This document shows positions 29,873 through 32,072 of a stretch of DNA of 32,072 nt, piece by piece. Under the pieces are notes generated by a model. The model was not told the origin of the DNA. It ran no database searches and worked only from the letters and a program-made list of their open reading frames with translations. Made by a program: the position numbers and the translations under genes. Source of the stretch: a virus. Position 1 is the first letter of the stretch. Each line of letters begins with the position of its first letter. The stretch is from positions 1-32,072 of the IMG/VR virus record IMGVR_UViG_3300040856_002671; one strand, given 5' to 3'.

Positions 29873-30643
29873 TCAAATTACACGAGTTTTTTCGTGTCCA
29901 ACACGAATACGAGGATCGCACCAGATCTCAAAGCCTTCTTCCTTTGCATCTAAACAGAAGGAAACGTCCTCTCCACACATATCTTGTACGGCACCAGACT
30001 CAAAGACTTGCATCTTAGGTGCAAACCAAGGATACTCAAGATTCTCAAATACCCCATTCTTAATCAGAACCCAACCAAATCCAGTGTAATCCACTGTAAA
30101 AGGCTTCTTACGCTTCGACATGGTTTCTGTGGTCTCATGATTCATAACTCCGCCATTGTTACGGAAGTCATCTTCCTCCAACCAGTGAGCAACTGAGGTC
30201 GTGCGCCCGTCCTCTGTAGCATACCACCCAGCTGTGATCTCACGTTCTGTGCCATCTTCAGAAAGTGCGAGATCGCAAAGTTGCCAGAACTTTTCTGTGT
30301 TGAAAACAATATCACTATCAATCCACAATTGATAATCATACTGCAACTTACCATCCCATGGCTTTTGCTTTGGTCCCCTCAGAACATTTGCACCAAGACA
30401 CTTACAACGTGCAAAGTTAACCATTGAAGAATAGTCCTGAGAAATTTGAATACTCATACCATTCTGTACCATATCAAAGCACAGTTGTACAAAACTCTTC
30501 AAGAATGTAAAAGAACATCCGCGACCTGGAAGACAAAATACAATGCTCTTTCCTGCCATACGCTCCCTAATCGCAGCATAATCCCATTCTTCAGTCTTTG
30601 TAATCTCTGGTGCCTTTGCTTTTACAGTAAATCCTTTTGCCAT
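29873..30643 (-). CDS. GT-A-fold glycosyltransferase-like protein
   Basis: The 256-aa protein has features of a GT-A (GT2-like) glycosyltransferase. After a first strand SIVFCLPGRGCSFTFLKSF (33-51) it has a DSD motif at 109-111 inside YQLWIDSDIVFNTEKFW, the usual metal/nucleotide-sugar site. A late GEDVSFCLDAKEEGFEIWCD segment (224-243) and His250 (VGHEK) follow, typical of the catalytic acid and the terminal metal-binding His. Many T4-like cyanophages carry such a gene. Possible substrates are virion proteins or host surface glycans; the sequence does not decide. A perfect late promoter octamer lies 36 nt upstream and GAGG precedes the start by about 14 nt, so it appears to be expressed late with the structural genes. 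Confidence 0.7.
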   Translation of the reverse strand: MAKGFTVKAKAPEITKTEEWDYAAIRERMAGKSIVFCLPGRGCSFTFLKSFVQLCFDMVQNGMSIQISQDYSSMVNFARCKCLGANVLRGPKQKPWDGKLQYDYQLWIDSDIVFNTEKFWQLCDLALSEDGTEREITAGWYATEDGRTTSVAHWLEEDDFRNNGGVMNHETTETMSKRKKPFTVDYTGFGWVLIKNGVFENLEYPWFAPKMQVFESGAVQDMCGEDVSFCLDAKEEGFEIWCDPRIRVGHEKTRVI

Positions 30644-31291: not shown

Positions 31292-31314
31292 GGGGTGCTA
31301 AGTATAAGCACCCC
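31292..31314 (-). terminator. Intrinsic terminator of the KTSC-like gene
   Basis: On the minus strand GGGGTGCT pairs with AGCACCCC across the 7-nt loop TATACTT, followed by TTCTTTATT. The perfect 8-bp GC-rich stem with a U-rich tail starts 9 nt after the stop codon at 31324. Confidence 0.8.
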
Positions 31315-31323
31315 ACACAACTA

Positions 31324-31548
31324 TCAGGCAGCAGCGATAGGCATAAGAACCTCAGATTTGATGCTGTTGTTCACAAACCGACCGACAGATTCACCGCTTT
31401 CAATAACCTTGCTCAGTGCACTTACAAAGTTGGCAACATCGTTCAGCGTGTAATCATAGGAGCGGTTACCCTTAAAGGTCAAAGTAGCGGTGTTGTCGTT
31501 GATAGCAATGTTCTCGATAGAGGTGCTGTTAGAGATAGCGAATTGCAT
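31324..31548 (-). CDS. Small KTSC-like domain protein (74 aa)
   Basis: The 74-aa protein looks like a KTSC-type domain: an N-terminal strand NSTSIENIAINDNTATLTF, then KGNRSYDYTLNDVANFVSAL (the Y-x-Y plus helix part). It ends with GESVGRFVNNSIKSEV, where KTSC domains have the SVGk-F-N--IK signature. The domain is named after the C-terminal part of a lysyl-tRNA synthetase; its role in phages is unknown. The leader is Thr/Cys-coding-like and pyrimidine-rich (CTTTACTCTTTTCATC before the ATG) with no Shine-Dalgarno. A copy of the 38-bp repeat lies 58 nt upstream and an intrinsic terminator follows, so it is probably a single-gene unit. Base composition is visibly more GC-rich than the structural genes. 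Confidence 0.7.
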   Translation of the reverse strand: MQFAISNSTSIENIAINDNTATLTFKGNRSYDYTLNDVANFVSALSKVIESGESVGRFVNNSIKSEVLMPIAAA

Positions 31549-31605
31549 GATGAAAAGAGTAAAGAATCAGAGTGGATTTTTTGGAGTCTTTAGGGCGCTG
31601 CCGTT

Positions 31606-31643
31606 CCCCTTACACCTAAGCGACACTCAAGAGGTGAGTAACT
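31606..31643 (-). repeat. 38-bp direct repeat, copy upstream of the KTSC-like gene
   Basis: The stretch is identical over 38 bp to 32035-32072. On the minus strand it starts AGTTACTCACCTCTTGAGTG and ends TTAGGTGTAAGGGG. It lies between the end of the 110-aa gene and the KTSC-like start. TTGAGT could be a -35 box, but no -10 box stands at normal spacing, so its role is open. Confidence 0.85.
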
Positions 31644-31663
31644 TTAATTGCTCACCCCTAAGT
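31625..31663. other. Imperfect stem-loop after the 110-aa gene
   Basis: On the minus strand ACTTAGGGGTGAG pairs with CTCACCTCTTGAGT (one bulge, G-T pairs) across the loop CAATTAAAGTTA. It begins 5 nt after the stop codon at 31669 and overlaps the 38-bp repeat. No T tract follows, so it may stabilise or process the transcript rather than terminate it. Confidence 0.5.
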
Positions 31664-31668
31664 ATAAC

Positions 31669-32001
31669 TCACCCGAAGGCAACTTGCAGGGCAGAGCGAT
31701 ACGAACGAACCTCAGAGATAGCGTCTTTCACGAACGGAATCACGACGTTCTGAACATAAGGAACTGCGACATTACGCACCCAGGTATAAGAAACCTTAGC
31801 GTACTTTTTGACTGCGCGGAACGCAATCTTGCAACGGGTGGACATACGGTGCTCAACCCACTTCTCAGAGGCAAGAGTGCAGACAGCGGCGACAATCGCA
31901 CAGACCATGACTACAGTATCCATCAGGGAATTGTAGTGCTTTTTATAATCAATGCCCATCAGGAAGGAGATCAGGGCAGTAGCGGGGGGGAAGGATTTCA
32001 T
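31669..32001 (-). CDS. Small membrane protein (110 aa)
   Basis: The product from the ATG at 32001 is 110 aa. An N-terminal segment MKSFPPATALISFLMGIDYK is followed by a hydrophobic stretch at about 27-45 (SLMDTVVMVCAIVAAVCTLA), a likely membrane span. The rest is basic and amphipathic: KYAKVSYTWVRNVAVPYVQN, then FVKDAISEVRSYRSAL. I recognise no family. The frame stays open upstream to an ATG at 32055, but that extension lies in the 38-bp repeat and would encode an unlikely Arg/Pro/His-rich lead; the inner start mirrors the leader layout of the KTSC-like gene (repeat, then a pyrimidine-rich CTCTTTCTTTATC, then ATG). Composition is more GC-rich than the virion genes, as expected for a separate expression unit. 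Confidence 0.65.
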   Translation of the reverse strand: MKSFPPATALISFLMGIDYKKHYNSLMDTVVMVCAIVAAVCTLASEKWVEHRMSTRCKIAFRAVKKYAKVSYTWVRNVAVPYVQNVVIPFVKDAISEVRSYRSALQVAFG

Positions 32002-32034
32002 GATAAAGAAAGAGTTTGGGTGGGGCGGTGAGCG

Positions 32035-32072
32035 CCCCTTACACCTAAGCGACACTCAAGAGGTGAGTAACT
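32035..32072 (-). repeat. 38-bp direct repeat, copy at the right edge
   Basis: Identical to 31606-31643 and cut by the window end, so the true repeat may be longer. It lies 33 nt before the ATG at 32001. Confidence 0.85.

Follow-up and report, generated by a model that had tools for sequence, protein, structure and literature searches.

A repeated promoter-like motif with an unusual −35 box ahead of small genes in T4-like cyanophages

Results

Two identical repeat copies precede consecutive small genes

At the right end of a 32,072-nt sequence from an IMG/VR virus record (IMGVR_UViG_3300040856_002671; the whole stretch is referred to as the window) the same 38 bp occur twice, which raises the question of whether such a repeat serves to express the small genes that follow it, acts in their RNA or allows them to be exchanged. 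Based on its gp25- and gp6-type baseplate wedge genes and on DNA matches to Synechococcus myoviruses, the phage is assigned to the T4-like cyanophages (Kyanoviridae). A search for tRNAs in the window found none. In the block beside gp25, positions 29873-30643 (minus strand) encode a 256-aa protein assigned to PHROG 1574, which matches a glycosyltransferase family more weakly. The repeats and the genes they precede are arranged as follows:

31324..31548, minus strand: 74-aa gene, PHROG 4357, with the ORF start at 31548
31606..31643, minus strand: repeat copy 1, a promoter-like motif ahead of the 74-aa gene, assigned by 38/38 identity and by the family definition
31669..32001, minus strand: 110-aa gene, with the ORF start at 32001
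32035..32072, minus strand: repeat copy 2, a promoter-like motif ahead of the 110-aa gene, truncated where the window ends and assigned by 38/38 identity

As the initial annotation had described, each of the two identical copies stands ahead of a small ORF. Both ORFs lie on the minus strand, along which copy 2 leads into the 110-aa gene after a gap of 33 nt and copy 1 into the 74-aa gene after 57 nt. The 110-aa protein has no match in PHROG, Pfam or the phage collection. The copies are 429 bp apart, and the probability that two 38-mers are identical by chance in 32 kb is negligible. Their length of 38 bp is a minimum set by the window, as the record stops at the final base of copy 2; copy 1 goes on as ...TTTAATTG, and in relatives the repeat spans at least 41 nt. 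The perfect identity may in part be an assembly effect at the contig end, because two equivalent copies in the related contig L044 differ at several positions. A contig-end artefact, or else a mobile palindromic or MITE-like repeat, would account both for this identity and for copy 2 ending exactly where the record ends. We consider either highly improbable, as comparable junctions, including the equivalent of copy 2, are complete in the independent contigs L044, L048 and L052, nearly all copies of the family described below lie on the gene strand at a fixed position, and the family displays no excess of hairpins.

The repeat is one version of a motif found in many Kyanoviridae sequences

The complete 38-mer of the window, scanned against viral contigs, found no match, because the spacer and the hexamer within it differ among phages. 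Judged by its conserved parts, the repeat is a variant of a motif that many Kyanoviridae sequences share and that reads RTTACTCACYT-N11-C-TATAGT-GTAA on the gene strand. The family comprises more than 400 distinct copies at approximately 120 loci, and exact matches are present in 114 IMG/VR stretches, often with several copies each. Complete isolates, searched with up to 3 mismatches, provide counts that are unbiased, unlike those from loci chosen by one exact match: SynMITS9220M01 and RB11-B each carry 10 copies, S-B05 carries 12 on one strand plus 1 on the opposite strand, and nearly all copies in the isolates share the same strand, with 0-1 hits for the reversed-pattern control. The 12 copies of S-B05 fall within a 9-kb block of small hypothetical genes, and comparison by hand places 9 of these 12 minus-strand copies 14-22 nt ahead of an annotated CDS start. 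Around 90 gene families lie downstream of the motif, mostly encoding proteins of less than 110 aa. Since the motif is missing from 13 of the 16 cyanophage records searched, amongst them Syn9, S-PM2, P-SSM2, Bellamy and S-RSM4, it is not a general cyanophage promoter. A literal search for the letters of the motif, in literature other than Doron 2016, Arbiol 2010 and Comeau 2014, returned no description of it.

The motif resembles a promoter with an unusual −35 region

Within the two copies, the following promoter-like elements can be assigned:

31632..31641, minus strand: −35-like box TTACTCACCT of copy 1, from the invariant block of the motif
31614..31619, minus strand: TTAGGT as the −10-like hexamer of copy 1, where most of the family has TATAGT; left free in the family search
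31607, minus strand: predicted transcription start of copy 1, 6 nt past the hexamer, placed by the conserved initiator position in the family
32061..32070, minus strand: −35-like box of copy 2, the same motif as in copy 1
32043..32048, minus strand: −10-like hexamer TTAGGT of copy 2, left free in the family search

Across 432 copies the hexamer, which the search left free, carries T at −12 in 409, A at −11 in 389 and T at −7 in 429, and a purine, mostly preceded by C, stands 6 nt past it (+1) in 366 of 430, so that a conserved C-A dinucleotide occurs at the expected transcription start; these frequencies are mildly biased, as the loci were selected by at least one exact match. In its −12, −11 and −7 bases and in its start spacing the family thus agrees with a sigma70-type −10 element, while the window's own TTAGGT departs from it at −11. 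At the −35 position the spacing of 16 nt is that of sigma70 promoters, but the hexamer is TTACTC instead of TTGACA. An AT-rich patch lies immediately upstream of the −35 box. The spacer between the two boxes measures 11 nt in 330 copies of the collected loci and no copy has any other length from 6 to 17 nt, whereas its sequence is free to vary, with an identity of 0.87 within genomes versus 0.55 between them; the flanks show no such difference. As to gene borders, 176 of 242 copies are followed by an ATG at 14-20 nt, and in 105 of 248 the upstream gene's stop codon lies no more than 5 nt from the motif.

These features suggest a promoter whose −10 is normal and whose −35 region is conserved and unusual. 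The proposal of the initial annotation that the repeat is a shared expression signal is well supported by the invariant two-box architecture, the orientation along the gene strand, the fixed distance to the start codon and the conserved initiator. Three features count against a promoter: the T at −11 of the window hexamer is poor for sigma70, TTAGGT or TAAGGT being the form found in the window's clade; the leaders that it predicts are very short, in many cases 9-15 nt; and 231 of 240 of these leaders do not contain a Shine-Dalgarno sequence.

The repeat takes the place of host-like promoters ahead of a conserved leader element

Copy 1 runs straight into a second conserved sequence:

31583..31608, minus strand: conserved 26-nt leader element GGGAACGGCAGCGCCCTAAAGACTCC, exact in 45 IMG/VR stretches

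The element is also exact in S-RSM4 and DSL-LC03, and S-CAM4 and ACG-2014h/e contain GGGAGAGG variants. Each complete isolate that has the element carries one copy per genome, approximately 20-50 nt upstream of various small genes and located either at the expected transcript start or right after a stop codon. Ahead of it, the window, L036 and L044 carry the repeat, and L004, L005, L006, L007, L026, L050, L062, L063 and L067 carry TTGACA/TATAAT-type promoters, with 8-9 nt between the end of their −10 and the element. As the repeat is found where other cyanophages have TTGACA/TATAAT promoters, it occupies a promoter slot. Counting against the promoter reading, phages that do not carry the motif show no consistent strong sigma70 promoter upstream of one orthologous gene (T4-GC 66).

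The element itself might, as a guess, be a 5' leader or a processing site. A six-codon leader peptide (ATG GGA ACG GCA GCG CCC TAA) was considered and rejected, as the ATG is not conserved. Host origin was likewise dismissed: none of 84,980 bacterial and archaeal genomes contains an exact match to the 19-nt core of the element. At the junctions directly upstream of the 74-aa gene in L052 and L057, which follow the 110-aa gene and an unrelated gene, respectively, the repeat is missing and a diverged form of the element (GGGATGCGCTCTAAAGACACCC) directly follows the stop codon.

RNA stems are confined to part of the window's clade

Three regions of the window are predicted to fold:

31614..31663, minus strand: region after the stop codon of the 110-aa gene that can pair with copy 1, z = −4.1 to −5.2
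32022..32038, minus strand: hairpin GGGGCG-CUCAC-CGCCCC at the predicted 5' end of the mRNA of the 110-aa gene, −12.4 kcal/mol, z = −4.2
31292..31314, minus strand: terminator-like hairpin after the 74-aa gene with loop TATACTT and a T-rich tail, −15.8 kcal/mol

The pairing of half of each copy with sequence after the preceding stop codon, noted at the outset, was recovered for copy 1 (predicted −29.1 kcal/mol, z = −5.2) but is not general to the repeat. Some junctions in L044 and L052 also fold strongly, so the gene-stem-repeat-gene layout describes part of the window's clade; in the rest of the family the stem is absent, 120 copies from other phages folding no better than shuffled sequences (mean z +0.29). 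For this reason the folding predictions identify the stem as a local addition and not as a defining feature of the repeat, and an RNA hairpin as the common feature of the family was ruled out. The hairpin at 32022-32038, a perfect 6-bp GC stem, is retained in L044 and L052, and the TATACTT loop of the hairpin at 31292-31314 recurs in a hairpin after the gene termed C below in L036 and L044. Searches with Rfam covariance models, covering the repeat region and the 26-nt element, gave no relevant match in the window (one chance SprD match elsewhere) or in five related loci.

These results bear on the possibility that the repeat acts in RNA, serving within a polycistronic mRNA as a cis element that governs how the following small gene is translated or processed. 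Its site between stop and start codons, the tight, short distance to the start codon and the strong hairpin at some junctions of the window's clade would fit such a role. We nevertheless regard it as quite unlikely: folding is not in excess outside this clade, the spacer is free in sequence and never in length, Rfam offers no match, and the hexamer and the distance between the boxes suit a promoter.

Small genes turn over between repeat copies

The initial annotation had anticipated more copies to the right, and such arrays are indeed seen in the near relatives L044, L048, L052, L057 and L036, with 3-7 copies of the exact pattern per locus; L036 carries at least 8 copies of the repeat. Read with its genes, L044 has the order D-C-B-A, where B is the 110-aa and A the 74-aa gene of the window, and each gene has its own repeat copy. 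The 110-aa gene lies between repeats in the window, L044 and L048. In L036 the order is D-C-A: B is precisely absent, and upstream of A's copy lies the sequence found in L044 ahead of the copy of B. In L057 (D-C-X-A) an unrelated 54-aa gene X follows the copy that elsewhere precedes B. The suggestion that the repeat lets small genes be swapped thus holds as far as gene content is concerned, with the 110-aa gene present, absent or replaced between repeats, while the recombination step is one that we infer. The spacer of one copy in L036 is of the type seen in the window's lineage (CTTGAGTGTCC), a hint that promoter cassettes may be exchanged between lineages.

Discussion

Taken together, we think it probable that the repeat serves a T4-like cyanophage as a promoter cassette, its −35 region being read with the help of a phage factor, and that the cassettes provide homology at gene borders. 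Each copy would consist of an AT-rich flank, the −35-like box TTACTCACCT, a lineage-typical spacer and a sigma70-type −10 hexamer, and transcription would start about 6 nt past the hexamer and extend into one or a few small genes. We propose that a phage-encoded factor at the −35 region would aid host RNA polymerase, since an ordinary −10 is combined here with a −35 that departs from TTGACA and keeps its sequence over 10 nt. This conservation, together with the lineage-typical spacer, suggests either a dedicated factor or homogenisation between copies. The same sequence ahead of neighbouring genes would provide the homology by which small genes could be gained, lost or replaced with the promoter kept.

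The nearest known kinds are the T4 middle promoters and the PeSL cassettes, each of which differs from the motif in one tested feature. T4 middle promoters (a MotA box with a sigma70 −10) likewise have a conserved box replacing the −35, an ordinary −10 and fixed spacing. The box sequence here is different, however, and the three motif-bearing complete genomes S-B05, RB11-B and SynMITS9220M01 contain no match to MotA (PF09114) or AsiA (PF09010), both of which were found in the T4 control (3e-63 and 2e-43, respectively), so that these two were discarded as the factor reading the motif. The proposed factor would act at a position analogous to the T4 MotA box without being homologous to MotA or AsiA. 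T4-like marine cyanophages have been reported to lack T4-like middle promoters and motA and/or asiA (PMC5780444, citing Doron 2016 and Thompson 2016); their expression nonetheless comprises early, middle and late classes.

PeSL (promoter early stem-loop) cassettes of T4-like phages (Arbiol 2010; Comeau 2014), as far as the account of them in PMC4503421 goes, are similar in that they contain promoters, recur in intergenic positions between small genes of early type and lie in regions where genes turn over. A strict cassette of this type, combining an early promoter with a stem-loop terminator and serving chiefly to shuffle genes as modules, would be consistent with the dense array among small genes (12 copies in 9 kb of S-B05), with gene presence, absence and replacement between copies, with the stem at copy 1 and with the terminator-like hairpin after the 74-aa gene. 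This reading overlaps the one we favour, the difference being the main purpose of the element, and we consider it unlikely: hairpins occur in only part of the window's clade and are no general part of the motif family, the stems between genes have no T-tract, and the 10-nt −35 box is not host-like. PeSL density in S-PM2, which also does not carry the present motif, was judged too low to explain its ORFanage (PMC4503421).

Two further systems invite comparison with the promoter cassette proposed here. Like the host-like sigma70 early promoters of cyanophages, it occupies the slot ahead of the 26-nt leader and has a −10 hexamer of their type, but at −35 it has TTACTC versus TTGACA, and its copies share a lineage-typical spacer. 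The Class I/II intergenic repeats of halovirus HF2 (PMC8707807) also are repeated intergenic viral promoters, in an unrelated virus and with unrelated sequences.

More tentatively, and with somewhat less than even confidence, we suggest that a group of T4-like cyanophages possesses its own activator-dependent promoter class as a counterpart of the MotA/AsiA middle promoters, in which an unrelated factor would read the −35-like box and co-evolve with the lineage-specific spacer, and the cassettes would be exchange points for small genes. A motif present in up to a dozen copies per genome ahead of small interchangeable genes points to a new route by which these phages may switch on genes. If this is true, the existence of a conserved promoter class whose −35 box is not of the host type would bring the missing regulator within reach of a search, the motif would serve as a marker for co-regulated small genes in metagenomes, and it would explain how small genes can be exchanged without loss of expression.
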